The translations under genes and the position numbers were made by a program. This document shows positions 1 through 53,382 of a DNA stretch of 64,000 nucleotides, piece by piece. The notes under the pieces were generated by a model that had not been told where the DNA came from, ran no database searches, and was given only the letters and a program-made list of their open reading frames with translations. How positions within the stretch are numbered: position 1 is the first letter of the stretch; each line of letters opens with the position of its first letter. Source of the stretch: Allacma fusca (taxonomy: Eukaryota > Arthropoda > Collembola > Symphypleona > Sminthuridae); assembly GCA_947179485.1 (NCBI GenBank), contig OX359248.1, positions 48,060,847-48,124,846 on the forward strand. Direction: 5' to 3'.

Positions 1-3000
1 AAATTAACTACAAAATTAACTACAAAATTAACTACAAATTTAACTACAAAATTAACTACAAAATTAATTACAAAATTAACTACAAGATTAACTACAAAAT
101 TGAATACAAAATTAACTACAAAATTAACTACAAAATTAACTACAAAATTGAATACAAAATTAACTACAGAATTAACTACAAAATTAACTACAAAATGAAC
201 TACAAAATTAACTACAAAATTAACTACAAAATTAACTACAAAATTAACTACAAAATTAACTACAAAATTAACTACAAAATTAACTACAAGATTAACTACA
301 AAATTAACTACAAGATTAACTACAAAATTAACTACAAAATTAACTACAAAATTAACTAAAAAATTAACTAAAAAATTAACTACAAAATTAACTACAAGAT
401 TAACTACAAAATTAACTACAAAATTAACTAAAAAATTAACTACAAAATTAACTACAAAATTAACTACAAAATTAACTACAAAATTAACTACAAAATTAAC
501 TACAAAATTAACTACAAAATTAACTACAAAATTAACTACAAAATTAACTACAAAATAGCCTACAAAATTAACTACAAAATGAACTACAAAATTAACTACA
601 AAATTAACTACAAAATTAACTACAAAATTAACTACAAAATTAACTACAAAATTAACTACAAAATTAACTACAAAATTAACTACAAAATTAACTACAAAAT
701 TAACTACAAAATTAACTACAAAATTAACTACAAAATGAACTACAAAATTAACTACAAAATTAACTACAAAATTAACTACAAAATGAACTACAAAATTAAC
801 TACAAAATGAACTACAAAATGAACTACAAAATTAACTACAAAATGAACTACAAAATTAACTACAAAATTAACTACAAAATTAACTACAAAATTAACTACA
901 AAATTAACTACAAAATTAACTACAAAATTAACTACAAAATTAACTACAAAATTAACTACAAAATTAACTACAAAATTAACTACAAAATTAACTACAAAAT
1001 TAACTACAAAATTAACTACAAAATTAACTACAAAATTAACTACAAAATTAACTACAAAATTAACTACAAAATTAACTACAAAATTAACTACAAAATTAAC
1101 TACAAAATTAACTACAAAATTAACTACAAAATTAACTACAAAATTAACTACAAAATTAACTACAAAATTAACTACAAAATTAACTACAAAATTAACTACA
1201 AAATTAACTACAAAATTAACTACAAAATTAACTACAAAATTAACTACAAAATTAACTACAAAATTAACTACAAAATTAACTACAAAATTAACTACAAAAT
1301 TAACTACAAAATTAACTACAAAATTAACTACAAAATTAACTACAAAATTAACTACAAAATTAACTACAAAATTAACTACAAAATTAACTACAAAATTAAC
1401 TACAAAATTAACTACAAAATTAACTACAAAATTAACTACAAAATTAACTACAAAATTAACTACAAAATAGCCTACAAAATTAACTACAAAATGAACTACA
1501 AAATTAACTACAAAATTAACTACAAAATTAACTACAAAATTAACTACAAAATTAACTACAAAATTAACTACAAAATTAACTACAAAATTAACTACAAAAT
1601 TAACTACAAAATTAACTACAAAATTAACTACAAAATTAACTACAAAATTAACTACAAAATTAACTACAAAATTAACTACAAAATTAACTACAAAATTAAC
1701 TACAAAATTAACTACAAAATTAACTACAAAATTAACTACAAAATTAACTACAAAATTAACTACAAAATTAACTACAAAATTAACTACAAAATTAACTACA
1801 AAATTAACTACAAAATTAACTACAAAATTAACTAAAAAATTAACTACAAAAATAACTACAAAATTAACTACAACATTAACTACAAAATTAACTACAACAT
1901 TAACTACAAAATTAACTACAAAATTAACTACAACATTAACTACAAAATTAACTACAAAATTAACTACAAAATTAACTACAAAATTAACTACAAAATTAAC
2001 TACAAAATTAACTACAAAATTAACTACAAAATTAACTACAAAATTAACTACAAAATTAACTACAAAATTAACTACAAAATTAACTACAAAATTAACTACA
2101 AAATTAACTACAAAATTAACTACAAAATTAACTACAAAATTAACTACAAAATTAACTACAAAATTAACTACAAAATTAACTACAAAATTAACTACAAAAT
2201 TAACTACAAAATTAACTACAAAATTAACTACAAAATTAACTACAAGATTAACTACAAAATTAACTACAAAATTAACTACAAAATGAACTACAAAATTAAC
2301 TACAAAATTAACTACAAAATTAACTACAAAATTAACTACAAAATTAACTACAAAATTAACTACAAAATTAACTACAAAATTAACTACAAAATTAACTACA
2401 AAATTAACTACAAAATTAACTACAAAATTAACTACAAAATTAACTACAAAATTAACTACAAAATTAACTACAAAATTAACTACAAAATTAACTAAAAAAT
2501 TAACTACAAAAATAACTACAAAATTAACTACAAGATTAACTACAAAATTAACTACAACATTAACTACAAAATTAACTACAAAATTAACTACAACATTAAC
2601 TACAAAATTAACTACAAAATTAACTACAAAATTAACTACAAAATTAACTACAAAATTAACTACAAAATTAACTACAAAATTAACTACAAAATTAACTACA
2701 AAATTAACTACAAAATTAACTACAAAATTAACTACAAAATTAACTACAAAATTAACTACAAAATTAACTACAAAATTAACTACAAAATTAACTACAAAAT
2801 TAACTACAAAATTAACTACAAAATTAACTACAAAATTAACTACAAAATTAACTACAAAATTAACTACAAAATTAACTACAAAATTAACTACAAAATTAAC
2901 TACAAAATTAACTACAAAATTAACTACAAAATTAACTACAAAATTAACTACAAAATTAACTACAAAATTAACTACAAAATTAACTACAAAATTAACTACA

Positions 3001-6000
3001 AAATTAACTACAAAATTAACTACAAAATTAACTACAAAATTAACTACAAAATTAACTACAAAATTAACTACAAAATTAACTACAAAATTAACTACAAAAT
3101 TAACTACAAAATTAACTACAAAATTAACTACAAAATTAACTACAAAATTAACTACAAAATTAACTACAAAATTAACTACAAAATTAACTACAAAATTAAC
3201 TACAAAATTAACTACAAAATGAACTACAAAATGAACTACAAAATTAACTACAAAATTAACTACAAAATTAACTACAAAATTAACTACAAAATTAACTACA
3301 AAATTAACTACAAAATTAACTACAAAATTAACTACAAAATTAACTACAAAATTAACTACAAAATTAACTACAAAATTAACTACAAAATTAACTACAAAAT
3401 TAACTACAAAATTAACTACAAAATTAACTACAAAATTAACTACAAAATTAACTACAAAATTAACTACAAAATGAACTACAAAATGAACTACAAAATTAAC
3501 TACAAAATTAACTACAAAATTAACTACAAAATTAACTACAAAATTAACTACAAGATTAACTACAAAATTAACTACAAAATTAACTACAAAATTAACTACA
3601 AAATTAACTACAAAATTAACTACAAAATTAACTACAAAATTAACTACAAAATTAACTACAAAATTAACTACAAAATTAACTACAAAATTAACTACAAAAT
3701 TAACTACAAAATTAACTACAAAATTAACTACAAAATTAACTACAAAATTAACTACAAAATTAACTACAAAATGAACTACAAAATTAACTACAAAATTAAC
3801 TACAAAATTAACTACAAAATTAACTACAAAATTAACTACAAAATGAACTACAAAATGAACTACAAAATTAACTACAAAATTAACTACAAAATTAACTACA
3901 AAATTAACTACAAAATTAACTACAAAATTAACTACAAAATTAACTACAAAATTAACTACAAAATTAACTACAAAATTAACTACAAAATTAACTACAAAAT
4001 TAACTACAAAATTAACTACAAAATTAACTACAAAATTAACTACAAAATTAACTACAAAATTAACTACAAAATTAACTACAAAATTAACTACAAAATTAAC
4101 TACAAAATTAACTACAAAATTAACTACAAAATTAACTACAAAATTAACTACAAAATTAACTACAAAATTAACTACAAAATTAACTACAAAATTAACTACA
4201 AAATTAACTACAAAATTAACTACAAAATTAACTACAAAATTAACTACAAAATTAACTACAAAATTAACTACAAAATTAACTACAAAATTAACTACAAAAT
4301 TAACTACAAAATTAACTACAAAATTAACTACAAAATTAACTACAAAATTAACTACAAAATTAACTACAAAAATAACTACAAAATTAACTACAAAATTAAC
4401 TACAAAATTAACTACAAAATTAACTACAAAATTAACTACAAAATTAACTACAAAATTAACTACAAAATTAACTACAAAATTAACTACAAAATTAACTACA
4501 AAATTAACTACAAAATTAACTACAAAATTAACTACAAAATTAACTACAAAATTAACTACAAAATTAACTACAAAATTAACTACAAAATTAACTACAAAAT
4601 TAACTACAAAATTAACTACAAAATTAACTACAAAATTAACTACAAAATTAACTACAAAATTAACTACAAAATTAACTACAAAATTAACTACAAAATTAAC
4701 TACAAAATTAACTACAAAATTAACTACAAAATTAACTACAAAATTAACTACAAAATTAACTACAAAATTAACTACAAAATTAACTACAAAATTAACTACA
4801 AAATTAACTACAAAATTAACTACAAAATTAACTACAAAATTAACTACAAAATTAACTACAAAATTAACTACAAAATTAACTACAAAATTAACTACAAAAT
4901 TAACTAAAAAATTAACTACAAAAATAACTACAAAATTAACTACAAAATTAACTACAAAATTAACTACAAAATTAACTACAAAATTAACTACAAAATTAAC
5001 TACAAAATTAACTACAAAAATAACTACAAGATTAACTACAAAATTAACTACAAAATTAACTACAAAATTAACTACAAAATTAACTACAAAATTAACTACA
5101 AAATTAACTACAAAATTAACTACAAAATTAACTACAAAATTAACTACAAAATTAACTACAAAATTAACTACAAAATTAACTACAAAATTAACTACAAAAT
5201 TAACTACAAAATTAACTACAAAATTAACTACAAAATTAACTACAAAATTAACTACAAAATTAACTACAAAATTAACTACAAAATTAACTACAAAATTAAC
5301 TACAAAATTAACTACAAAATTAACTACAAAATTAACTACAAAATTAACTACAAAATTAACTACAAAATTAACTACAAAATTAACTACAAGATTAACTACA
5401 AAATTAACTACAAAATTAACTACAAGATTAACTACAAAATTAACTACAAAATTAACTACAAAATTAACTACAAAATTAACTACAAAATTAACTACAAAAT
5501 TAACTACAAAATTAACTACAAAATTAACTACAAAATTAACTACAAAATTAACTACAAAATTAACTACAAGATTAACTACAAGATTAACTACAAAATTAAC
5601 TACAAAATTAACTACAAAATTAACTACAAAATTAACTACAAAATTAACTACAAAATTAACTACAAAATTAACTACAAAATTAACTACAAAATTAACTACA
5701 AAATTAACTACAAAATTAACTACAAAATTAACTACAAAATTAACTACAAAATTAACTACAAAATTAACTACAAAATTAACTACAAAATTAACTACAAAAT
5801 TAACTACAAAATTAACTACAAAATTAACTACAAAATTAACTACAAAATTAACTACAAAATTAACTACAAAATTAACTACAAAATTAACTACAAAATTAAC
5901 TACAAAATTAACTACAAAATTAACTACAAAATTAACTACAAAATTAACTACAAAATTAACTACAAAATTAACTACAAAATTAACTACAAAATTAACTACA

Positions 6001-9000
6001 AAATTAACTACAAAATTAACTACAAAATTAACTACAAAATTAACTACAAAATTAACTACAAAATTAACTACAAAATTAACTACAAAATTAACTACAAAAT
6101 TAACTACAAAATTAACTACAAAATTAACTACAAAATTAACTACAAAATTAACTACAAAATTAACTACAAAATTAACTACAAAATTAACTACAAAATTAAC
6201 TACAAAATTAACTACAAAATTAACTACAAAATTAACTACAAAATTAACTAAAAAATTAACTACAAAAATAACTACAAAATTAACTACAAGATTAACTACA
6301 AAATTAACTACAAAATTAACTACAAAATTAACTACAACATTAACTACAAAATTAACTACAAAATTAACTACAAAATTAACTACAAAATTAACTACAAAAT
6401 TAACTACAAAATTAACTACAAAATTAACTACAAAATTAACTAAAAAATTAACTACAAAAATAACTACAAAATTAACTACAAAATTAACTACAAAATTAAC
6501 TACAAAATTAACTACAACATTAACTACAAAATTAACTACAAAATTAACTACAAAATTAACTACAAAATTAACTACAAAATTAACTACAAAATTAACTACA
6601 AAATTAACTACAAAATTAACTACAAAATTAACTACAAAATTAACTACAAAATTAACTACAAGATTAACTACAAAATTAACTACAAAATTAACTACAAAAT
6701 TAACTACAAAATTAACTACAAGATTAACTACAAAATTAACTACAAAATTAACTACAAAATTAACTACAAAATTAACTACAAAATTAACTACAAAATTAAC
6801 TACAAAATTAACTACAAAATTAACTACAAGATTAACTACAAAATTAACTACAAAATTAACTACAAAATTAACTACAAAATTAACTACAAAATTAACTACA
6901 AAATTAACTACAAAATTAACTACAAAATTAACTACAAAATTAACTACAAAATTAACTACAAAATTAACTACAAAATTAACTACAAAATTAACTACAAGAT
7001 TAACTACAAAATTAACTACAAGATTAACTACAAAATTAACTACAAAATTAACTACAAAATTAACTACAAAATTAACTACAAAATTAACTACAAAATTAAC
7101 TACAAAATTAACTACAAAATTAACTACAAAATTAACTACAAAATTAACTACAAAATTAACTACAAAATTAACTACAAAATTAACTACAAAATTAACTACA
7201 AAATTAACTACAAAATTAACTACAAAATTAACTACAAATTTAACTACAAAATTAACTACAAAATTAACTACAAAATTAACTACAAAATTAACTACAAGAT
7301 TAACTACAAAATTGAATACAAAATTAACTACAAAATTAACTACAAGATTAACTACAAAATTAACTACAAAATTAACTACAAAATTAACTACAAAATTAAC
7401 TACAAAATTAACTACAAAATTAACTACAAAATTAACTACAAAATTGACTACAAAATTAACTACAAGATTAACTACAAAATTGAATACAAAATTAACTACA
7501 AAATTAACTACAAGATTAACTACAAAATTAACTACAAAATTAACTACAAAATTAACTACAAAATTAACTACAAAATTAACTACAAAATTAACTACAAAAT
7601 TAACTACAAAATTAACTACAAATTTAAGTACTCTGCGTTGATACCACTGCTTAACATCGTCGTGTCGTGGATTAACTACAAAATTGAATACAAAATTAAC
7701 TACAAAATTAACTACAAAATTAACTACAAAATTGAATACAAAATTAACTACAAAATTAACTACAAAATTAACTACAAAATTAACTACAAAATTAACTACA
7801 AAATTAACTACAAAATTAACTACAAAATTAACTACAAAATTAACTACAAAATTAACTACAAAATTAACTACAAAATTAACTACAAAATTAACTACAAAAT
7901 TAACTACAAAATTAACTACAAAATTAACTACAAAATTAACTACAAAATTAACTACAAAATTAACTACAAAATTAACTACAAAATTAACTACAAAATTAAC
8001 TACAAAATTAACTACAAAATTAACTACAAAATTAACTACAAAATTAACTACAAAATTAACTACAAAATTAACTACAAAATTAACTACAAAATTAACTACA
8101 AAATTAACTACAAAATTAACTACAAAATTAACTACAAAATTAACTACAAAATTAACTACAAAATTAACTACAAAATTAACTACAAAATTAACTACAAAAT
8201 TAACTACAAAATTAACTACAAAATTAACTACAAAATAACTACAAAATTAACTACAAAATTAACTACAAAATAACTACAAAATTAACTACAAAATTAACTA
8301 CAAAATTAACTACAAAATTAACTACAAAATTAACTACAAAATTAACTACAAAATTAACTACAAAATTAACTACAAAATTAACTACAAAATTGAATACAAA
8401 ATTGAATACAAAATTAACTACAAAATTAACTACAAGATTAACTACAAAATTGAATACAAAATTAACTACAAAATTAACTACAAGATTAACTACAAAATTG
8501 AATACAAAATTAACTACAAAATTAACTACAAAATTAACTACAAAATTAACTACAAAATTAACTACAAAATTAACTACAAAATTAACTACAAAATTAACTA
8601 CAAAATTAACTACAAAATTAACTACAAAATTAACTACAAAATTAACTACAAAATTAACTACAAAATTAACTACAAAATTAACTACAAAATTAACTACAAA
8701 ATTAACTAAAAAATTAACTACAAAAATAACTACAAAATTAACTACAAAATTAACTACAAAATTAACTACAAAAATAACTACAAGATTAACTACAAAATTA
8801 ACTACAAAATTAACTACAAAATTAACTACAAAATTAACTACAAAATTAACTACAAAATTAACTACAAAATTAACTACAAAATTAACTACAAAATTAACTA
8901 CAAAATTAACTACAAAATTAACTACAAAATTAACTACAAAATTAACTACAAAATTAACTACAAAATTAACTACAAAATTAACTACAAAATTAACTACAAA

Positions 9001-12000
9001 ATTAACTACAAAATTAACTACAAAATTAACTACAAAATTAACTACAAAATTAACTACAAAATTAACTACAAAATTAACTACAAAATTAACTACAAAATTA
9101 ACTACAAAATTAACTACAAAATTAACTACAAAATTAACTACAAAATTAACTACAAAATTAACTACAAAATTAACTACAAAATTAACTACAAAATTAACTA
9201 CAAAATTAACTACAAAATTAACTACAAAATTAACTACAAAATTAACTACAAAATTAACTACAAAATTAACTACAAAATTAACTACAAAATTAACTACAAA
9301 ATTAACTACAAGATTAACTACAAAATTAACTACAAAATTAACTACAAAATTAACTACAAAATTAACTACAAAATTAACTACAAAATTAACTACAAAATTA
9401 ACTACAAAATTAACTACAAAATTAACTACAAGATTAACTACAAAATTAACTACAAAATTAACTACAAAATTAACTACAAAATTAACTACAAAATTAACTA
9501 CAAGATTAACTACAAAATTGAATACAAAATTAACTACAAAATTAACTACAAAATTAACTACAAAATTAACTACAAAATTAACTACAAAATTAACTACAAA
9601 ATTAACTACAAAATTAACTACAAAATTAACTACAAAATTAACTACAAAATTAACTACAAAATTAACTACAAAATTAACTACAAAATTAACTACAAAATTA
9701 ACTACAAAATTAACTACAAAATTAACTACAAAATTAACTACAAAATTAACTACAAAATTAACTACAAAATTAACTACAAAATTAACTACAAAATTAACTA
9801 CAAAATTAACTACAAAATTAACTACAAAATTAACTACAAAATTAACTACAAAATTAATTACAAAATTAACTACAAAATTAACTACAAAATTAACTACAAA
9901 ATTAACTACAAAATTAACTACAAAATTAACTACAAAATTAACTACAAGATTAACTACAAAATTAACTACAAAATTAACTACAAAATTACCTACAAGATTA
10001 ACTACAAAATTAACTACAAAATTACCTACAAGATTAACTACAAAATTAACTACAAAATTAACTACAAGATTAACTACAAAATTAAATACAAAATTACTAA
10101 AAAATTAACTACAAGATTAACTACAAAATTGAATACAAAATTAACTACAAAATTAACTACAAAATTAACTACAAAATTTACTAAAAAATTAACTACAAAA
10201 TTAACTACAAAATTAACTACAAAATTAACTACAAAATTAACTACAAAATTTACTAAAAAATTAACTACAAAATTAACTACAAAATTAACTACAAAATTAA
10301 CTTCAAAATTAACTACAAAATTAACTACAAAATTAACTACAAAATTAACTACAAAATGAACTACAAAATTAACTACAAAATTAACTACAAAATTAACTAC
10401 AAAATTAACTACAAAATTAACTACAAATTTAACTACAAAATTAACTACAAAATTAACTACAAAATTAACTACAAAATTAACTACAAAATTAACTACAAAA
10501 TTAACTACAAAATTAACTACAAAATTAACTACAAAATTAACTACAAAATTAACTACAAAATTAACTACAAAATTAACTACAAAATTAGCTACAAAATTAA
10601 CTACAAAATTAACTACAAAATTAACTACAAAATTAACTACAAAATTAACTACAAAATTAACTACAAAATTAACTACAAAATTAACTACAAAATTAACTAC
10701 AAAATTAACTACAAAATTAACTACAAGATTAACTACAAAATTAACTACAAAATTAACTACAAAATTAACTACAAGATTAACTACAAAATTGAATACAAAA
10801 TTAACTACAAGATTAACTACAAAATTAACTACAAAATTAACTACAAAATTAACTACAAGATTAACTACAAAATTGAATACAAAATTAACTACAAGATTAA
10901 CTACAAAATTAACTACAAAATTGAATACAAAATTAACTACAAGATTAACTACAAAATTAACTACAAAATTAACTACAAAATTAACTACAAAATTGAATAC
11001 AAAATTAACTACAAGATTAACTACAAAATTAACTACAAAATTAACTACAAAATTAACTACAAAATTAACTACAAAATTAACTACAAAATTAACTACAAAA
11101 TTAACTACAAAATTAACTACAAAATTAACTACAAAATTAACTACAAAATTAACTACAAAATTAACTACAAAATTAACTACAAAATTAACTACAAAATTAA
11201 CTACAAAATTAACTACAAAATTAACTACAAAATTAACTACAAGATTAACTACAAAATTAACTACAAGATTAACTACAAGATTAACTACAAAATTAACTAC
11301 AAAATTAACTACAAAATTAACTACAAAATTAACTACAAAATTAACTACAAAATTAACTACAAAATTAACTACAAAATTAACTACAAAATTAACTACAAAA
11401 TTAACTACAAAATTAACTACAAAATTAACTACAAAATTAACTACAAAATTAACTACAAAATTAACTACAAAATTAACTACAAAATTAACTACAAAATTAA
11501 CTACAAAATTAACTACAAAATTAACTACAAAATTAACTACAAAATTAACTACAAAATTAACTACAAAATTAACTACAAAATTAACTACAAAATTAACTAC
11601 AAAATTAACTACAAAATTAACTACAAAATTAACTACAAAATTAACTACAAAATTAACTACAAAATTAACTACAAAATTAACTACAAAATTAACTACAAAA
11701 TTAACTACAAAATTAACTACAAAATTAACTACAAAATTAACTACAAAATTAACTACAAAATTAACTACAAAATTAACTACAAAATTAACTACAAAATTAA
11801 CTACAAAATTAACTACAAAATTAACTACAAAATTAACTACAAAATTAACTACAAAATTAACTACAAAATTAACTACAAATTTAACTACAAAATTAACTAC
11901 AAAATTAACTACAAAATTAACTACAAAATTAACTACAAAATTAACTACAAAATTAACTACAAAATTAACTACAAAATTAACTACAAAATTAACTACAAAA

Positions 12001-13230
12001 TTAACTACAAAATTAACTACAAAATTAACTACAAAATTAACTACAAAATTAACTACAAAATTAACTACAAAATTAACTACAAAATTAACTACAAAATTAA
12101 CTACAAAATTAACTACAAAATTAACTACAAAATTAACTACAAAATTAACTACAAAATTAACTACAAAATTAACTACAAAATTAACTACAAAATTAACTAC
12201 AAAATTAACTACAAAATTAACTACAAAATTAACTACAAAATTAACTACAAAATTAACTACAAAATTAACTACAAAATTAACTACAAAATTAACTACAAAA
12301 TTAACTACAAAATTAACTACAAAATTAACTACAAAATTACCTACAAAATTAACTACAAAATTAACTACAAAATTAACTACAAAATTAACTACAAAATTAA
12401 CTACAAAATTAACTACAAAATTAACTACAAAATTAACTACAAAATTAACTACAAAATTAACTACAAAATTAACTACAAAATTAACTACAAAATTAACTAT
12501 AAAATTAACTACAAAATTAACTACAAAATTAACTACAAAATTAACTACAAAATTAACTACAAAATTAACTACAAAATTAACTACAAAATTAACTACAAAA
12601 TTAACTACAAAATTAACTACAAAATTAACTACAAAATTAACTACAAAATTAACTACAAAATTAACTACAAAATTAACTACAAAATTAACTACAAAATTAA
12701 CTACAAAATTAACTACAAAATTAACTACAAAATTAACTACAAAATTAACTACAAAATTAACTACAAAATTAACTACAAAATTAACTACAAAATTAACTAC
12801 AAAATTAACTACAAAATTAACTACAAAATTAACTACAAAATTAACTACAAAATTAACTACAAAATTAACTACAAAATTAACTACAAAATTAACTACAAAA
12901 TTAACTACAAAATTAACTACAAAATTAACTACAAAATTAACTACAAAATTAACTACAAAATTAACTACAAAATTAACTACAAAATTAACTACAAAATTAA
13001 CTACAAAATTACCTACAAAATTAACTACAAAATTAACTACAAAATTAACTACAAAATTAACTACAAAATTAACTACAAAATTAACTACAAAATTAACTAC
13101 AAAATTAACTACAAAATTAACTACAAAATTAACTACAAAATTAACTACAAAATTAACTACAAAATTAACTACAAAATTAACTACAAAATTAACTACAAAA
13201 TTAACTACAAAATTAACTACAAAATTAACT
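1..13230. repeat. 12-bp satellite array (AAATTAACTACA)n, about 1,100 units
   Basis: An almost unbroken head-to-tail array of the 12-mer AAATTAACTACA runs from the window start to 13230, where unique sequence begins. The left end is outside the window. Recurrent variant units include AAATTGAATACA, AGATTAACTACA, AAATGAACTACA, AACATTAACTAC, AAAATAACTACA and AAATTAACTAAA. The unit has no G, so the plus strand is almost G-free and the minus strand almost C-free over 13 kb. Because 12 is a multiple of 3, two plus frames stay open and give tetrapeptide ORFs (INYK or KLTT repeats, up to 992 codons). I read these as a by-product of the period, not genes. Phase breaks occur at the adapter (7627-7652) and near 8237 and 8270, where single bases are missing. 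Exact length is unreliable because the array is collapsible and contains an adapter. Confidence 0.97.
7627..7652 (-). other. Residual amplification adapter (assembly artefact)
   Basis: The minus strand of these 26 bases reads AAGCAGTGGTATCAACGCAG followed by AGTACT. This is the SMART-type PCR primer sequence used for cDNA amplification and, to my knowledge, in a long-read low-input genomic amplification kit. It sits inside the 12-bp satellite and breaks its phase. The next 18 bases or so (7653-7672) are also not satellite and of unknown origin. A natural 26-base match is implausible, so two molecules or two ends of amplified fragments were probably joined here. Confidence 0.95.
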
Positions 13231-13770
13231 GTATTAATTTTTTATTTTGGGTTTCGGGTTGGTCCGAAATTATAAATTTACTGAATATTCGACTAGAGTT
13301 GAATTTAGAACAGATAAGTTGCGTGCATAATTGACGTTGCTCATAATTAATTCATTTCTTTCGTGTATTTGCATGCTTTTGTCGTTAACTGTATTTTATA
13401 CGTACACATGCTTTATAATTTAGAAACGTTCATTTAAGCATGATAGTTTGTCTTCAAAAATTTTCAGAGCCAATAAGTTTTTTTCCGATGAATGTGGTGA
13501 TTTGTAATGGATAGTATTTCAATATAATAGAATATGGAAATAGATGATTCACAGCAGATTTAGTTTTTACTGAAAATGCTGTTTTTTCATCGAGTTTTTA
13601 AACAATTTGAAGTTGAAACAAAAGTGCATAAAACGGGCTTGGTTGAACATCGAATATTAAACCCGTTGGCTGGCCAGGTCAGGCTAACAGAGTATTTGTT
13701 CGGGTTTCTTCTGGGTTCGGGACTAAAGTCAAGTCCGAATCCCACCTTTAGGTATAAGCACCACTATCTA
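13231..13770. other. Unique AT-rich spacer after the satellite
   Basis: No gene is supported. The spacer begins abruptly after the last 12-mer. It holds short GGGTTTCGGG / GGGTTCGGG-like repeats near both ends (about 13249-13262 and 13702-13722), which could be the edges of an old transposon, but I see no convincing terminal inverted repeat or target duplication. The only ORF (13576-13800) has no recognisable domain. Confidence 0.5.
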
Positions 13771-14496
13771 CTGAGCTGTCCAAGATACATTGTATTTTAA
13801 ATACATGTATTTTAAATACATATTTCAAATACGTATTTCAAATACATTTTTGTATTTTTTATTTTAGTGGCTAGATTTGTATTTTGGAGTTTGTATTTTA
13901 GTGCCTAGATATGTATTTTGTATTTTGTAGTTTGTATTTTGTCTTACGACGCAATGTATTTTGTAGTTTGTATTTTTTGTTACTTAAGTAAAGTAAGCAA
14001 TGTAGTTTGTATTTTGTGTTACTTAAGTAAAGTAAGCAATGTATTTTGTAGTTTGTATTTTGTGTTACTTAAGTAAAGTAAGCAATGTATTTTGTAGTTT
14101 GTATTTTGTGTTACTTAAGTAAAGTAAGCAATGTATTTTGTAGTTTGTATTTTGTTCGCTATATAAGCTACTTGTGTTTTTTGTTGGCGCACTTTCTTTG
14201 GGTTTGAAATTTCCGTTTATGCCAAAAACCAATCACATCAATGAAGTTAAACGAAATTCAATCGTTTTTACATCCCATAAAGCTAAATTCAAGATTTTGC
14301 ATTTTCTAAGTTTCAAGTATGTATTTAGTATTTTGTAGTTTGTATTTTCGTCGCTTGAAGAATGTATTTTGTATTTTGTAGTTTGTATTTTCGACGCCTG
14401 AGGAATGTATTTTGTAATTTGTATTTTCGACGCCTGAAGAATGTATTTAGTATTTTGTGATTTGTATTTATGGAGCATGTATTTTGGACAGCTCTG
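13771..14496. mobile_element. hAT-like non-autonomous element with GTATTTT subterminal arrays
   Basis: The two ends are imperfect inverted repeats: left CTGAGCTGTCCAAGATACAT, right (reverse complement) CAGAGCTGTCCAAAATACAT. The interior is dominated by the motif GTATTTT / AAATAC. It includes a short tandem repeat with starts at 13979, 14017, 14063 and 14109 (units of 38-46 bp containing TGTTACTTAAGTAAAGTAAG) and a related set at 14330-14470. No transposase frame is present. Terminal CAGAG-type inverted repeats with repeated subterminal motifs are typical of hAT elements. I see no matching 8-bp target duplication, so it is old or was altered after insertion. The tandem-duplicated region starts just to its right. 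Confidence 0.65.
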
Positions 14497-41762: not shown

Positions 41763-42608
41763 TGTTCAGGCTACATTTGCGTAAACTCCATTTGTATGCT
41801 TTAGCTGGAGCCCAGCTCCTGCCTTTTAACTCATTTACCTTTTATTTTACTGATTATGCGTGCATTTGTTACAATGTCAACTTCGTGAGGCTCCTCAACT
41901 CGAATACCAATATAAGTACTTTTCTTACCTGGACAGTATTCTAATCATTTTTCCTTTAGCCCTGCAACCTACTGAGTGAGTTTAACCATCGGTCAAGCTC
42001 AACTCCTCATATACAATCATTCTTGTATGTATGTATGTACTAATTTTATATGCCTCATCTCATATGTATTTTAACCTAGTTAAGCGCTACACCAATGTAT
42101 AGTAAATTACTCCTTATTCATAATTATTGGATTGTAATACTTTTTCCTCAAAAACACAAAGAACCTCAACCTATAAAAAGGCTCCGAGAATACAACTCGG
42201 AGAGCACTTCTTCTCCAGCCTTCCTATTGTAAGGACCTCAAGTAGTGGGTGTCCTGGCTCCAATTTCCTACTCCTTACGCTGTGTAATTCTACCGCTTGA
42301 CATTACCACGTATTTTTACGCTGTGTAATTCTACGGCTTGACATTACCACGTATTTTACCATAATTGACCCATCTCAAGTTAACATTGGAGTGATTCCTT
42401 TCCAAGGCTCCGTAATTAAATTGTACCCTTTAAACTTAGTGTTTGTAGTAACTATTCTTGTTTTGCAGTAATTAAATTGAGTCTAATTGAGGTTTAACCT
42501 ATTGTTGTTTGCTCCACTTTATTACAACACATTTGCTCCATCTTTCCATCTCATACCATAAGTCTCTCATCTATCAGGAACATAAGTTATCCCGTTTCTA
42601 ACGAAACA
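41763..42608 (+). repeat. BEL 5' LTR
   Basis: 846 bp, TGTTCAGG...CGAAACA. Contains TATAAAAAG at 42172-42180 and a 41-bp direct repeat at about 42278-42358 (TACGCTGTGTAATTCTAC unit). Five substitutions separate it from the 3' LTR. Confidence 0.97.
42172..42202 (+). promoter_or_regulatory. BEL LTR TATA box and adjacent hairpin
   Basis: TATAAAAAG at 42172-42180 is followed two bases later by a perfect inverted repeat CTCCGAG (42182-42188) / CTCGGAG (42196-42202) with a 7-base loop. The same arrangement is in the 3' LTR. Confidence 0.6.
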
Positions 42609-42613
42609 TTTTT

Positions 42614-42633
42614 TGGTCCTTCGAACCGGATCC
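42614..42633 (+). promoter_or_regulatory. BEL primer-binding site, tRNA-Tyr type
   Basis: Five bases after the LTR, TGGTCCTTCGAACCGGATCC is complementary to the 3' end of a metazoan tRNA-Tyr (acceptor strand ...TCGAAGGA plus CCA), with at most a couple of mismatches in the T-arm as I recall that tRNA. Confidence 0.75.
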
Positions 42634-42710
42634 AGTGTAGATCAGAGCCGATTGCACTGAACCCTTTCCTTTAGTTTTAATTTGTGTTCCTGTCGAGAGG
42701 AACTTACAAT

Positions 42711-45700
42711 ATGTCTCTCCCCAGTGAGAAAAACCTCCGCGGCGCCCAGTCGTCCGTTAAGGGTCGATTCACCATCCTTGAGAAGGAAATTGCAAATCGG
42801 GGGATACTGAAGTTTTCCCGGGTAAGGTACGACGCCCTCCTGAAGCAAATCCAAACGGGTTGGAGTAACTTCGAAACAGCCAACAGTCAGCTCTACGTTT
42901 ACCTTGCTGATGATGCTGCGGAAACTGTCCAAGAGAAAGAGGTCAGCGATCTCAGTTCTCGCTACCTGAAGTTACTGGAGGACCTGGAAAACCTCAAACC
43001 AGACGCCATTCCTAGCACATCTAGTACAAAGGTGAAGCTACCCGACCTGGAAGTTCCTGTGTTCCATGGGGAACTTGAGAAGTGGACTTCCTTCTATGAC
43101 CTGTTTTGCGCAGCAGTTCATAGCCAAAGTGGATTGAGCCCTTCCCAGAAGCTTCAATACCTGAAGACCTCACTGAAGGGGGAAGCGGAATCAATCATTG
43201 GCCATCTAACCATCACCGACAGCAACTACACTGAGGCGTGGACGCTGCTAAAGGAACGCTTTGACAATAAGCGTGAGATCATTGAGGCTCATCTCAATCG
43301 TCTCATCAACCAACCCATTATGAAGGAGGAATCTGGAACCGCTCTACGTCGACTAATCGACGTCTCCAGAGAATGCATCCAAGCATTAAGTGTCCTCAAA
43401 GTACCTACCGATCATTGGGATGCCTGGCTTGTCTACACCTTGAAGGACAAGTTGGACCCTGAAACTCGCCGCCAGTGGATTCTTTCTCTGAAGAGCACGG
43501 AAATGCCCACCTTTAAGGAATTCTGCGAATTCATCTCCCAGCGTACCCGTGCAGTAACCGAATCCACCAGCACCAAACCTATCGCCTCTAAGTCCAACGG
43601 TGGTACCAACTCCAAAACGAAGTCTGTCTCCTCCAACCATGGCACCACCGACTCCAAATGTAAGGTTTGTAAAGATCAATTTCATCCTCTCTTCAAGTGT
43701 TCGACTTTCCAAAAGTGGTCAGTCAAGGAGCGAAGGGACTATGTCAAGTCCAAGAACCTGTGCTTCAATTGCTTTAGCACCAACCACAAGAGCCAAGCTT
43801 GTGGGAACAAGACCAGTTGCAAGAAGTGCAACAAGCGCCATCACACGATGGTACACACGGAATTGCCTTCTGATACTCAAGGGGCAGGAGAGACGGCTGC
43901 AACCCATCACGTTGCAAAGAACGAGTCGACCACGACCCATGTTCTCCTCCCCACGGCAGTCGTCAACGTGGAGGACTCCAAAGGAAACCTCCACGCCGTC
44001 CGAGCCCTGTTAGACAGCGGATCTGAAGTTAGCTTCGTGGCTGAACGGATCGTCAAGCAGCTCGGATTGAAGACTCGCACCACCAACATCTCAGTAAGTG
44101 GAGTTTCTAATGTCACCGTGGGTTCGTCCCACAAACTAGCCCATGTTCCTCTTTCGTCCCGTGTATACTCGTACCGCACAACCCTTGAAGCCTTAGTCAT
44201 GCCAAAGGTAACAGGCAGACTCCCAGGTACGAAGAACCCACTCGCGGACATGGAACACCTCCGAGGTCTCCGTTTGGCGGATCCATTCTTCTTCAAACCT
44301 GAAGAAGTTGACCTCATCATAGGCGCAGAACTGTTCTCTGCATTATTAAGGACAACCGCAAAAATCTCTGGACCTCCAGGATTTCCTGACGCGGTTGACA
44401 CCATGTTTGGATGGGTCGTTTTAGGTGTTGATTCGTCAACAAGTTCACGACCATCCGTAACATCCCACCACGCCAGTTGCGACTTAACCAACGCCGTTGA
44501 AAGGTTTTGGGAACTCGAGTCTGTTCCACCTGAGGTAGTTGAGTCCAACGAATCCGCGTTAGCCGAAGACCACTTCAAGTCCACGTACCAAAGAGTTCCT
44601 GACGGTCGCTACATGGTGAGGCTTCCCCTGAAGCCAAACACTCCTGCCCTTGGTCCGTCAAGATACAATGCCGTTCGTCGCCTTCACCAAATGGAGAAAA
44701 GGTTCTCCAAGGACCCCTTGTTCCAACAACAATACATTGCTGCCATGAAGGAGTACCAAGCAATGGGGTACATGGTGAAGGTTCCTACTAAGGATTCGAC
44801 CATCGAATCACCCTCCACATACTACATGCCACATCATGGAGTGGTAAAAGCCTCCAGCAGTACCACACAACTCCGTGTCGTTTTTGATTCATCAGCCAAG
44901 TCCTCTTCAGGAGTGTCATTGAATGACAAGCTCCTTGTAGGACCTAAGACCCAGGAAGACTTGCTGTCACACCTTCTCAGATTCCGTATGTGGAAATACG
45001 CCATATCAACTGACATCAAGCAGATGTACCATCAATTCCAAGTACATCCCAATGACCAGCCATTGCAAAGAGTTGTTTGGCGCGAGGATCCCCAAGGCCC
45101 AATTGAAGATTGGCACATTACCGTTGTCACGTTTGGAAACTGTGCCTCACCTTTCCTCGCCACTCGAGCTCTCAACCAACTTGCAATGGACGAGATGGAC
45201 TCTTTGCCAGCAGCATGTAAGGTAATGCTCCACGATGTTTATGTGGACAATATCATGACCGGTGAAGATGACATAGCCCGGGCACTCGCCATTCAAGATG
45301 AACTGCTCCAGCTGAGCAGCCGGGGGAGAATTCAACTACGTAAATGGATCTCCAACGACGCTGCCCTTCTAAGCCGACTCGACCCAAGCCTGTGTGAAAC
45401 CAAGTTTCCGATGGATATGTATCCAGATGATACATTCAGCACACTTGGTCTCAATTGGAATCCCTTGTCTGACTCGTTTTGCTTCTCCGTAAGGACACCG
45501 TGTAATCAGGGAACCCACACCAAGAGATCCTTCCTATCGGGCGTCTCTAAGATATTTGACCCCATGGGTTGGCTTTCCCCTGTGACCATCAAAATGAAGA
45601 TCTTGTTCCAGTCTTTATGGCAAGAAGACATATCCTGGGATGACCCATTACCCGAAAACGTTTTGTCATCTTGGATGACGATTCTTCAAACGCTGAAGTC

Positions 45701-47807
45701 AGTTGCAAGCATCAAGATTCCGCGCCACGCCAAGCTCTCATCCTTCAAACTGGAACTCCTCGGGTTTTGTGACGCATCTGAAAAGGCATACGCAGCTGCC
45801 GTATATCTAAGATCAGTGAATGCCGGTCAAGTCTCCATCAACCTTCTCATTGCCAAGACTCGTGTAGCACCAAAGAAGCATGAGACACTACCTCGTCTGG
45901 AGCTTTGTGGTGCACTCCTCCTAGTCAAGTTACTGGACACGGTCAAAAGTCACCTTCGACACCCTATCGAAGAGACACATCTTTGGACTGATTCCACGAT
46001 TGTCCTGTCCTGGATAGCTGATCCTTCCAACTGGAAAACCTTCGTATCCAATCGGATATCAACCATTGTCAAGTCTTATCCGAGATCATGCTGGCACCAT
46101 GTCAGAAGTCACGACAATCCAGCAGATTGTGCGTCTCGTGGCATCAACCCTAACGAGTTAGAAGATCACCCACTTTGGTGGCACGGCCCATCCTGGTGTG
46201 TGGATCCGTCGTTTAACTTTGCCAGCGAGTGCAAAATTGAAAAGCCCTTAGTCATACCGGAACTCCGGACTGTAAGGACCCACGCGGTCACAACCGATAC
46301 ATCGATCCTCGAAAGATACTCTTCTCTACAAACTCTCATTCGAGTTGTAGCAGCATGTCTCCGAGTTTCTCCGAAGAAGAGAGTCAGGGACCCTATGTCG
46401 GAGTTCTCAGTTAATGAACTCCACATTGCCCTACAGCGATGCATCATGTCTGCCCAAATGGCTGAATTTCCAAAGGAGATAGCTGCCTGCCAGAATAAAT
46501 CTCCACTACCACGCAAAAGTAAGATACTTTCCCTCAGCCCATTTCTAGATACAACCGGCCTTCTCCGCGTAGGCGGCCGGCTTCGCCACTCCAACCTTCC
46601 AGAAGATCGAAAGTTTCCTATACTGCTCCCTAGCAAGGGTAACCTCACGCAGTTGATCATTCGTGATGATCACCGTCGAGGACTCCACGCAGGTCCACAA
46701 TTGCTACTATCAATGCGCATGCAAAGATACTGGATCATCCGCGGTCGCGCAGTAGTCAAGACCTTCGTCCAGAAATGTGTAACCTGCTTTCGTCACCGCG
46801 CTGCAACCGCATCGCAAAAGATGGGTGATTTGCCACCAATGAGGGCGAATCAATCCCGGGCATTCCTCAAGACTGGTGTCGACTTTGCGGGTCCATTCAC
46901 TCTGAAGAGATCGTTTGGACCAAGAAACACCCAGACTTTCAAGTCATACGTTTGCGTTTTCGTCTGCTTCACAACCCATGCAATCCATCTGGAACCAGTC
47001 AGCGACCTGACTACCGATGCCTTCATTGCAGCCTTGAAACGGTTTGTCTCTCGTCGCGGACTGTGTTCTGATATCTCCAGTGATTGCGGAACCAACTTCG
47101 TGGGAGCCGACAAGGAGCTGCAGAAAGACTTGGAAGTTCTGCGAACATCCGAAAGTCTTTGCAAGGTAACCAGCTCGCTTTCTTCCGTAAGCATCAGGTG
47201 GCACTTCAATCCACCATCCGCTCCTCATTTCGGAGGCCTCTGGGAAGCTGGAGTGAAGCTTGTTAAGAACCACATGAAGCGCGTGATTGGAACTACCACC
47301 CTTAACTTCGAGGAGTTGACAACTGTGCTTGCACAGATCGAGGCATGTGTCAACTCTCGCCCCATCTCACCGTTATCCACAGACCCGGAAGACCTCTCCG
47401 CGCTTACACCAGGTCATTTCCTTATTGGCCAACCGCTCAACTCTGTTCCCGAACCAGATCTCACTGAATTAAAGATCACCCGATTGTCTCGTTGGCAACT
47501 GTGTCAACAACTCACACAGGAGTTCTGGAAACGCTGGCACACAGAGTACCTTGCCACTCTTCAACAACGTCCTAAATGGGCCTCAGCAGAGGACAACATC
47601 ACGATCGGGACCTTAGTTTTGATTAAGGATGACCGACCACCGTCTCTTAAGTGGAAACTTGGTCGCGTTACCGAAGTTCATCCCGGCAAAGATAACCTCG
47701 TGCGGGTTGTAACGCTCAAGACATCCGACGGAGAGCTGAAGAGACCCGTAGCTAAGCTATGCCCACTTCCGCTTGCCGATGAATCCGACACATCCAACGG
47801 TTGTTGA
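42711..47807 (+). CDS. BEL/Pao Gag-Pol polyprotein (1,698 codons, uninterrupted)
   Basis: Start chosen at the first ATG (42711); the open frame extends 27 bases upstream. Domains: Gag-like DUF1759 region (about 109-260), CCHC knuckles (first Cys about 317 and 351, with a further Cys/His group near 380), retropepsin-like protease with D-S-G at 435-437, Pao-type reverse transcriptase (about 690-960), RNase H with D1021, E1064, D1094 and D1139, integrase zinc finger, integrase core D1391, D1458 and E1512, and the C-terminal DUF5641-like tail. The length is normal for the group. The oddity is the RT motif at 844-847, Y-V-D-N, where the second catalytic Asp is Asn. That would be expected to disable polymerisation unless the family tolerates it. 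The codon bias is more GC-rich than the surroundings. Confidence 0.95.
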   Translation: MSLPSEKNLRGAQSSVKGRFTILEKEIANRGILKFSRVRYDALLKQIQTGWSNFETANSQLYVYLADDAAETVQEKEVSDLSSRYLKLLEDLENLKPDAIPSTSSTKVKLPDLEVPVFHGELEKWTSFYDLFCAAVHSQSGLSPSQKLQYLKTSLKGEAESIIGHLTITDSNYTEAWTLLKERFDNKREIIEAHLNRLINQPIMKEESGTALRRLIDVSRECIQALSVLKVPTDHWDAWLVYTLKDKLDPETRRQWILSLKSTEMPTFKEFCEFISQRTRAVTESTSTKPIASKSNGGTNSKTKSVSSNHGTTDSKCKVCKDQFHPLFKCSTFQKWSVKERRDYVKSKNLCFNCFSTNHKSQACGNKTSCKKCNKRHHTMVHTELPSDTQGAGETAATHHVAKNESTTTHVLLPTAVVNVEDSKGNLHAVRALLDSGSEVSFVAERIVKQLGLKTRTTNISVSGVSNVTVGSSHKLAHVPLSSRVYSYRTTLEALVMPKVTGRLPGTKNPLADMEHLRGLRLADPFFFKPEEVDLIIGAELFSALLRTTAKISGPPGFPDAVDTMFGWVVLGVDSSTSSRPSVTSHHASCDLTNAVERFWELESVPPEVVESNESALAEDHFKSTYQRVPDGRYMVRLPLKPNTPALGPSRYNAVRRLHQMEKRFSKDPLFQQQYIAAMKEYQAMGYMVKVPTKDSTIESPSTYYMPHHGVVKASSSTTQLRVVFDSSAKSSSGVSLNDKLLVGPKTQEDLLSHLLRFRMWKYAISTDIKQMYHQFQVHPNDQPLQRVVWREDPQGPIEDWHITVVTFGNCASPFLATRALNQLAMDEMDSLPAACKVMLHDVYVDNIMTGEDDIARALAIQDELLQLSSRGRIQLRKWISNDAALLSRLDPSLCETKFPMDMYPDDTFSTLGLNWNPLSDSFCFSVRTPCNQGTHTKRSFLSGVSKIFDPMGWLSPVTIKMKILFQSLWQEDISWDDPLPENVLSSWMTILQTLKSVASIKIPRHAKLSSFKLELLGFCDASEKAYAAAVYLRSVNAGQVSINLLIAKTRVAPKKHETLPRLELCGALLLVKLLDTVKSHLRHPIEETHLWTDSTIVLSWIADPSNWKTFVSNRISTIVKSYPRSCWHHVRSHDNPADCASRGINPNELEDHPLWWHGPSWCVDPSFNFASECKIEKPLVIPELRTVRTHAVTTDTSILERYSSLQTLIRVVAACLRVSPKKRVRDPMSEFSVNELHIALQRCIMSAQMAEFPKEIAACQNKSPLPRKSKILSLSPFLDTTGLLRVGGRLRHSNLPEDRKFPILLPSKGNLTQLIIRDDHRRGLHAGPQLLLSMRMQRYWIIRGRAVVKTFVQKCVTCFRHRAATASQKMGDLPPMRANQSRAFLKTGVDFAGPFTLKRSFGPRNTQTFKSYVCVFVCFTTHAIHLEPVSDLTTDAFIAALKRFVSRRGLCSDISSDCGTNFVGADKELQKDLEVLRTSESLCKVTSSLSSVSIRWHFNPPSAPHFGGLWEAGVKLVKNHMKRVIGTTTLNFEELTTVLAQIEACVNSRPISPLSTDPEDLSALTPGHFLIGQPLNSVPEPDLTELKITRLSRWQLCQQLTQEFWKRWHTEYLATLQQRPKWASAEDNITIGTLVLIKDDRPPSLKWKLGRVTEVHPGKDNLVRVVTLKTSDGELKRPVAKLCPLPLADESDTSNGC

Positions 47808-47823
47808 ATAACACCAATTATTC

Positions 47824-47836
47824 AAGGCCCGGAGAA
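47824..47836 (+). promoter_or_regulatory. BEL polypurine tract
   Basis: AAGGCCCGGAGAA abuts the 3' LTR and should prime plus-strand DNA synthesis. The purine run is broken by CCC. Confidence 0.6.
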
Positions 47837-48682
47837 TGTTCAGGCTACATTTGCGTAAACTCCATTTGTATGTTTTAGCTGGAGCCCAGCTCCTGCTTTT
47901 TAACTCATTTACCTTTTATTTTACTGATTATGCGTGCATTTGTTACAATGTCAACTTCGTGAGGCTCCTCAACTCGAATACCAATATAAGTACTTTTCTT
48001 ACCTGGACAGTATTCTAATCATTTTTCCTTTAGCCCTGCAACCTACTGAGTGAGTTTAACCATCGGTCAAGCTCAACTCCTCATATACAATCATTCTTGT
48101 ATGTATGTATGTACTAATTTTATATGCCTCATCTCATATGTATTTTAACCTAGTTAAGCGCTACACCAATGTATAGTAAATTACTCCTTATTCATAATTA
48201 TTGGATTGTAATACTTTTTCCTCAAAAACACAAAGAACCTCAACCTATAAAAAGGCTCCGAGAATACAACTCGGAGAGCACTTCTTCTCCAGCCTTCCTA
48301 TTGTAAGGACCTCAAGTAGTGGGTGTCCTGGCTCCAATTTCCTACTCCTTACGCTGTGTAATTCTACGGCTTGACATTACCACGTATTTTTACGCTGTGT
48401 AATTCTACGGCTTGACATTACCACGTATTTTACCATAATTGACCCATCTCAAGTTAACATTGGAGTGATTCCTTTCCAAGGCTCCGTAATTAAATTGTAC
48501 CCTTTAAACTTAGTGTTTGTAGTAACTATTCTTGTTTTGCAGTAATTAAATTGAGTCTAATTGAGGTTTAACCTATTGTTGTTTGCTCCACTTTATTACA
48601 ACACATTTGCTCCATCTTTCCATCTCATACCATTAGTCCCTCATCTATCAGGAACATAAGTTATCCCGTTTCTAACGAAACA
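47837..48682 (+). repeat. BEL 3' LTR
   Basis: 846 bp, 5 differences from the 5' LTR. Followed by GTAAC, the second copy of the target duplication. The ORF 47836-48018 lies in the LTR and is not a gene. Confidence 0.97.
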
Positions 48683-51320: not shown

Positions 51321-51900
51321 AAACTAATAGCTAAAAAAGCTAAAACAGAAGTTGCTTTTGCGCCCTCAAAAGTTAAAAACAAGTTTTCTGTTTGGGTTTG
51401 TCAAAGGAATCAACATTCGGTTACTGAAAATGATGAAAACGCTTGAAACGACGAAAATCAACGCTACGACATGTGTATAGTTTATAGTCAACATAAAGTA
51501 GCCGAGTAGCAGCACCATGCGTTTGTTTCAGAATAAGGATTGATCTAACTTTATGCAATCCTTATATTCTATAATACGAAATTCCGCCGAAGTGTTCTCG
51601 ACAGTATTTCCATGTGAGAATGTCCGAATTTCCTGGAATTATTGCAATAATTGTGTAATCAATGGATAATAAATGCAGTGTATTGTGGGATTGCATAAAG
51701 TTAAGGTATAAAGCTGCTTCTCGGGTACTTTATATGCTGACTATAAACTATACACATATCGTAGCGTTGCTTTTCGTCATTTCAAGCGTTTTCATCATTT
51801 TCAGTAACAGAATATTGATTCCGTTGACAAACCCAAACAGAAAACTTGTTTTTAGCTTTCAAAAGAAACTTCTGTTTTAGCTTTTTTAGCTATTAGTTTT
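51321..51900. repeat. Long inverted repeat (arms about 220-240 bp)
   Basis: 51321-51565 is the imperfect reverse complement of 51683-51900, with roughly 120 bp between. Aligning landmarks: AACTAATAGCTAAAAAAGC at 51322 with GCTTTTTTAGCTATTAGTTT at 51881, and AAACGCTTGAAACGACGAAA at 51438 with its reverse near 51776. Transcription would give a long hairpin RNA. No coding potential. The outer border meets the 12-bp minisatellite directly. Confidence 0.85.
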
Positions 51901-52283
51901 TTAATTTAATTTTAATTTAATTTTGATTTAAAAATTGATTTAAAAATTGATTTAAAAATTGATTTAAAAATTGATTTAAAAATTGATTTAAAAATTGATT
52001 TCAAAATTGATTTAAAAATTGATTTAAAAATTGATGTAAAAATTGATTTAAAAATTGATGTAAAAATTGATTTAAAAATTGATTTAAAAATTGATGTAAA
52101 AATTGATTTAAAAATTGATTTAAAAATTGATTTAAAAATTGATTTAAAAATTGATTTAAAAATTGATTTAAAAATTGATTTAAAAATTGATTTAAAAATT
52201 GATTTAAAAATTGATTTAAAAATTGATTTAAAAATTGATTTAAAAATTGATTTAAAAATTGATTTAAAAATTGATTTGAAAAA
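51901..52283. repeat. 12-bp minisatellite (AAATTGATTTAA)n, about 30 units
   Basis: Regular 12-mers from about 51922 (TTGATTTAAAAA register) to 52283, preceded by degenerate TTTAATTTAA repeats. Variants with TTGATGTAAAAA recur. The minus-strand ORF of NQFL repeats is a by-product of the 12-base period. Confidence 0.95.
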
Positions 52284-53382
52284 ATGTTATAAGTTCTTAG
52301 GAAATTAAAATATCTCATATATATTTTTTAGTCATAATATTAGGCCCTGAAGAAGAGCACTGTTCGTGTTTGAAAGCTTGGCATAATAAAAGTGATTCTA
52401 AGCAATAACCATGTATTCCAATTATTACAATAATTGATTATAATATATTACAAATTTTTAATGACCTCACCGCTTGATTTACTTAAGCTCGACAACAAGG
52501 AATAGATAACTGTTTCAGGGTTATCAAACAATAGCACACATTTACTACTTCCCAGAATTATTCCATCATTTCAGCCTTTTGTCAGCCGGAATTCCCAACC
52601 TCTGAATATTAGCCTTAGAAGAACATACTTTTAACAACCCTTCAATTTGCTATATGCCAGCTGTCATTCTTCTCACTCTAAAAATTATAGCATATGCAGA
52701 TGTATAAAAATCAAATGAGTATATTTTGCTCATGTGGAGGGAATTCCACAAAAATATCACAAGTAATTACATACCTATTCTGACCCATCTTTACTCTTCA
52801 AAGCGCAACGTTATTTTAATTCCTAGTGGAGTGCCAGTCAGACTCATAACAAAATCAGATGTGATCAGAACTACTTCCTAATTCCATACGGGGCAAAGCA
52901 TTACTATCTGATGCAACAGCATGGGCTGGTAACTTTGCGTACTCTGTAAATACCCTAAAACGTTTATATAAATGCCAGTGTGCGTTATAACTGTTGGTCA
53001 TTAAAACGTTAATATAAACCGTTGCCCATTAAAATGTTTTTGGTTATAAACTCAAGAAAGTACGTAAATATAAATTTTTTTTTGTATTGTTTGTATTATC
53101 AATCTGACGATTGAGTTAATTTTCAGCGTATAATCGTTATCAGTATGTCTATTCTGAATTTTGAAAAGCATTTATAATGAAATTCAAATAATGCTTGTGC
53201 GACATCTAAAGGTTGGCGTCAAAGAGAATTTAATCTAAACAACAAATCCGACAATATATGGCACAGGCTTGACATCCCAGTTGCATGTGTTTAAATGTGG
53301 CCTCATTGAATTTTCTGAGGTCAATCTCAAGCACAATAGAGCTTTTCCTTTTTATCTAATGTACTCCCTCGCAAAAAATTAG
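52284..53382. other. Intergenic DNA between minisatellite and duplicated flank
   Basis: No supported gene or element. No obvious similarity to the equivalent position in front of copy A (13231-14514). Confidence 0.5.

Follow-up and report, generated by a model that had tools for sequence, protein, structure and literature searches.

A 43-base barcode and primer block in a satellite array of the Allacma fusca genome assembly

A synthetic block inside a 12-base satellite

How did a laboratory primer come to lie inside a satellite array of a springtail chromosome, and what does its presence say about the array as assembled? The window, by which we mean the whole 64,000-nucleotide stretch of DNA that was analysed, corresponds to positions 48060847-48124846 of C12 (58,810,162 bases), chromosome 4 (58.81 Mb) of Allacma fusca. 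Repeat analysis assigned window positions 1-13247 (no strand) to a 12-base satellite, AAATTAACTACA, which is the right-hand part of an array beginning 21.8 kb left of the window. Within it, the sequence AGTACTCTGCGTTGATACCACTGCTT matches the reverse complement of a SMART-type primer exactly at 7627-7652 and occurs once in the window, just as an earlier reading made from the sequence alone (hereafter, the sequence-only reading) had claimed. That reading placed the feature at 7627-7672 and took it for the 26-base primer alone. The foreign block in fact covers 43 bases, 7627-7669, and includes the barcode bc1020 and two further single Ts, while bases 7670-7672 (GAT) are ordinary satellite and lie outside it.

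Read on the minus strand, to which all its parts belong, the block runs CACGACACGACGATGT, T, AAGCAGTGGTATCAACGCAGAGTAC, T, and then satellite. The PacBio 16-base sample barcode bc1020 (CACGACACGACGATGT) lies at 7654-7669, with its reverse complement starting at 7654; the same 16-mer is listed as BC1020_Forward in a table of PMC7962047 and is also used to barcode primers in PMC11069185 and PMC12005355. The single T between barcode and primer, at 7653, is the same base in 54/54 copies found across the genome and probably derives from the T overhang of a barcoded hairpin adapter. The 25-base PacBio ultra-low-input or SMART-type amplification primer matches exactly at 7628-7652. A T follows this 25-mer in 51/51 exact copies, and the one at 7627 would be the ligation T contributed by the T overhang of the amplification adapter, an adapter type described in PMC8138834. 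The 26 bases including this final T are the same as the adapter taken off PacBio HiFi reads with lima in Lecanora helva (PMC12613986). Bases 7627-7669 are synthetic, not biology.

The sequence-only reading also held that the block interrupts the 12-mer register and makes both the contiguity of the satellite and its 13-kb length untrustworthy. The first of these claims fails: 12-base units begin at 7624 and 7672, 48 bases apart, and the block thus replaces 43 satellite bases (plus-strand 43-85 being a native counterpart, below) while the register continues. The array as assembled is 35,065 bases long (window -21817 to 13247), contains no Ns, and breaks register at three places, after 8227, 8262 and 10073, none of them at the block. 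The 13-kb figure is therefore an effect of the window edge, although the caution about length stands, since what holds the two sides together is an overlap of reads within a 12-base repeat. As for contiguity, the adapter alone does not disprove it, because the flanks are in register.

A nearly identical stretch lies 7,584 bases upstream and contains the native counterpart, 43 satellite bases that fill the block's place; there, window positions -198 to 42 and 86 to 168 are identical to the block flanks. This partner stands out by rare in-register unit variants, TTGAATAC (17 in the array) and TTGACTAC (2). The match at this offset is exact for those two intervals alone, with scattered mismatches beyond. 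A best-partner search for 6900-8200 with the block masked preferred other offsets, among them +4245 with 18 mismatches, since consensus units find matches everywhere. Judged from the sequence, the 7,584-base offset may reflect a looped assembly path or a genuine repeat, neither of which is proved.

Other repeats were observed in the window. Degenerate short tandem repeats rich in TGTATTTTGTAG lie at the array edge (13785-14469) and resemble the satellite's opposite strand, and a second, shorter 12-base satellite, TTGATTTAAAAA, occupies 51896-52297 in about 30 copies. The interval 41763-48431 looks like a young LTR retrotransposon: a direct repeat of at least 300 bases occurs twice at 99% identity, 6,074 bases apart, a 41-base tandem pair follows each copy, and GC is elevated in between.

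Copies of the block across the assembly

The sequence-only reading had proposed a search for the primer in the rest of the assembly. Over 392,743,791 bases (392.7 Mb) in 91 contigs, this search recovered the 25-mer in 51 exact copies, 22 on one strand and 29 on the other, and in no copy with 1-2 mismatches; the backwards control gave none. By our own arithmetic, the 26-mer would be expected about 2e-7 times by chance on both strands. The assembly analysed may be a later or edited version of the published one, since C1 and C9 fall short of their lengths in PMC10427803 by 4.4 and 6.2 kb, and the scaffolds number 91 instead of 95. The barcode plus T occurs in 43 exact copies, 40 of which adjoin an exact primer, so the 17 bases corresponding to 7653-7669 are present in full at 40/51 exact primer copies. 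The other three carry an altered primer, with an inserted base (L060), a deleted base (L062) or several bases missing (L061). The total is at least 54 copies, and the flanks of all 54 (L009-L062) were inspected. The order barcode-T-primer is kept in 54/54. At its outer end the barcode lacks, or differs in, 1-6 bases in 11/51 exact copies, and AAGCAGTGGTATCAACGCAGAGTAC is followed by the ligation T and then genomic DNA in 51/51.

The barcode side is turned toward N runs in 23/54 copies, and the remaining 31/54 lie inside contigs. Direct contact with Ns was found in 21/51 exact copies, always on the barcode side; the N run is exactly 200 long in 18 of these 21 and at least 1,937 long in three (L035-L037), where the Ns may represent withheld sequence. 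Among the altered copies, L061 adjoins Ns directly and L062 is one base away. An account in which a 43-base element was genuinely inserted into the satellite would agree with the occurrence of the element at many places in the genome. It is next to impossible given that the primer is unchanged in 51/54 copies, that the element contains a commercial barcode, that so many copies face N runs, and that a collection of 84,980 prokaryote species genomes contains no exact copy of the 43-mer.

Short-period satellites hold 25/31 internal copies, 24 with the same satellite on both sides (L060 included) and one, L059, with two different satellites. The six internal copies without short-period repeats on both sides are L009, L017, L019, L022, L024 and L034, and in four of them an N run lies near the barcode side, at 26 (L009), 126 (L034), 407 (L022) and 1,128 bases (L019). 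Internal copies within 150 kb of one another form seven clusters (20 copies), and orientation is uniform in each, as would be expected if a contig is written from each read's prefix. L011, a gap-facing copy of opposite orientation that lies between two cluster copies, was left out of the clusters as a contig end.

The published assembly, qeAllFusc8.1, was made from one male with the PacBio ultra-low-input protocol, hifiasm 0.16.1 and YaHS (PMC10427803), in agreement with the low-input library that the sequence-only reading had suggested. The text of the genome paper, as far as it was available, names neither barcode nor primer trimming. Its genomic protocol bears on the idea that the primer is a template-switch primer from contaminating SMART cDNA rather than a product of genomic amplification. 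The same 26 bases do occur in full-length cDNA sequencing papers; however, only 1/51 exact copies (L035) has GGG or TTTTT after the primer, and most internal copies lie in satellite, so that we regard a cDNA source as extremely unlikely.

How the block entered the contigs

We consider it very probable that the block is an untrimmed PacBio HiFi read end built into a contig. In the ultra-low-input protocol, barcoded hairpin adapters are added after PCR, and in an actual SMRTbell molecule the hairpin is attached to the barcode's outer end. Before receiving the barcoded hairpins, the sheared DNA would have passed through the ultra-low-input steps given in PMC8138834, namely A-tailing, ligation of an amplification adapter with a T overhang, and PCR. 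A finished read end would then consist of barcode (bc1020), T, primer, T and springtail DNA, the hairpin presumably having been removed by software. Some read ends may have retained these 43 bases and been assembled into contigs by hifiasm. Where a contig ends, the block is turned toward the scaffold gap, and within satellites the assembler would have laid an adapter-bearing read end over the next read, with the adapter displacing satellite bases. Judging from its orientation in the window, the springtail insert of the adapter-bearing read would run leftward from 7626, and another read would supply the sequence from 7670 rightward. The claim that an amplification adapter had been left in the assembly is thus borne out, in at least 54 copies that combine primer and barcode.

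If the assembler placed an adapter-tipped read over its neighbour, the adapter should take the place of satellite bases and the register should continue with the adapter counted. This exact replacement register was found at 13/25 satellite sites, with L059 scored as a miss, compared to 1.9 expected by chance (P ~5e-9, assuming independent sites, an assumption that copies sharing an array may violate). A pure-insertion model fits 1/25 sites, not above chance, and was rejected. Of the 12/25 sites that miss exact replacement, 10 are off by 1-5 bases, one fits insertion, and L059 joins different satellites; since the largest possible register offset is 6-9 bases, misfits of 1-5 bases are weak evidence. 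Ordinary satellite, sampled at adapter-free control points in the same loci, kept register in 937/1023. The adapter sites do clearly less well, with register lost at about every second join. Distant indels were rejected as the cause of the misfits, because taking the register from only 3 or 5 units per side gave 13/24 both times (L059 left out). Outside the short-period satellites, a 987-base-period repeat at L024 spans the adapter with a spacing of 985 bases if the adapter is included and 942 if it is not.

The misfits at 12/25 satellite joins speak against the read-end account. So does the observation that only 23 of about 1,300 gap-facing contig ends carry the block (744 contigs, 95 scaffolds; PMC10427803), which implies that most read ends were clean or clipped. 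The misfits also agree with a physical chimera, in which two amplicons were joined via the adapter in PCR or ligation and the molecule was sequenced across it. Such molecules seem to exist elsewhere: 8/12 primer-bearing prokaryote species-genome loci have exact head-to-head primer pairs 0-1 base apart, and three more (L181, L183, L191) have a primer pair with one base changed or missing. In A. fusca, by contrast, none of the 51 exact copies has a head-to-head pair, and each block holds a single primer with the barcode outside. A second 26-mer was found within 120 bases of 0/51 exact copies and nowhere in the inspected flanks of the three others, which does not support the PCR chimeras that the sequence-only reading had thought possible.

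A chimeric molecule should also carry a hairpin beside the barcode. The 45-base SMRTbell hairpin gave no genome match at up to 3 mismatches, in a search that may skip simple repeats, and hairpin 14-mers were found in none of the 54 loci (L009-L062). A barcode placed directly against satellite or other sequence with no hairpin indicates that the join was most likely made in the computer. Barcode-to-satellite contact therefore most likely arose in silico and not in a molecule, and we judge a physical chimera to be very unlikely.

Our preferred reading remains that of the untrimmed read end, and the adapter most likely marks the end of a read. At L022, the 252 bases after the adapter are 100% identical to the last 252 bases before the neighbouring gap, and unless this shared 252-mer is simply a repeat, the 407-base stretch separating gap from adapter resembles a false prefix. 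Untrimmed read ends may have survived selectively in satellites, where overlaps tolerate 43 wrong bases, and a scan for barcode and primer would then be a map of satellite-read stitching; we put forward this putative selective survival tentatively, as possible rather than probable. If true, barcode and primer marks could be used to audit satellite lengths in other ultra-low-input genomes.

Comparable cases and affected sites

The block is a known kind of artefact. Adapter contamination of HiFi data, assemblies by hifiasm included, has been associated with contig insertions, truncated duplicate contigs, mis-joins and inverted-duplication neighbours (Sim et al. 2022, HiFiAdapterFilt, PMC8864876). 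The A. fusca copies resemble those cases in that a library adapter was left in HiFi reads and assembled into contigs. They differ in that HiFiAdapterFilt, as described there, screens for the blunt hairpin adapter and the C2 primer, whereas A. fusca carries barcode and amplification primer without a hairpin, and in that the block in the window replaces satellite instead of being inserted. Reads with complete PCR adapters were discarded for two Collembola genomes (PMC8138834); adapters were thus taken out before assembly there and in PMC12613986, whereas in A. fusca they were partly left in. Among the papers listed by a literature search, there was no relevant published report on an adapter or satellite in Allacma fusca.

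The A. fusca reference genome, which is intended for work on paternal genome elimination, carries synthetic bases at at least 54 places. The 31 copies inside contigs include at least one, L022, with the look of a false join, and assembled lengths need care at the 25 that lie in short-period satellites. A screen for the hairpin adapter only would miss blocks of barcode and primer.

Several sites show further sequence relationships around the adapter. Two adapter-capped contig ends, L018 and L020 (C1:60.76 Mb and 73.26 Mb), have 1,498 bases in common at 100% with an offset of 2 bases, a possible false duplication. At L009 (C1:1.79 Mb), an inverted duplication surrounds the adapter: the 1,274 bases that follow it recur exactly, in inverted orientation, on its opposite side, where a 200-N gap starts 26 bases away. 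At the contig ends L045 and L046 (C10:32.20 and 32.92 Mb), the adapter is followed by 63-64 bases that are mutually reverse complementary (98%), and further common stretches lie behind them.

The primer was also observed in other collections. Among GTDB species genomes, the 26-mer occurs at 12 MAG loci (L180-L191), all titled FRAM, and is single at one (L190); the other 11 look like head-to-head amplicon chimeras. In IMG/VR, the 26-mer is found exactly in 114 stretches (L066-L179), of which 110 start with it at contig base 1, which means that adapter-capped viral contigs exist in that collection.
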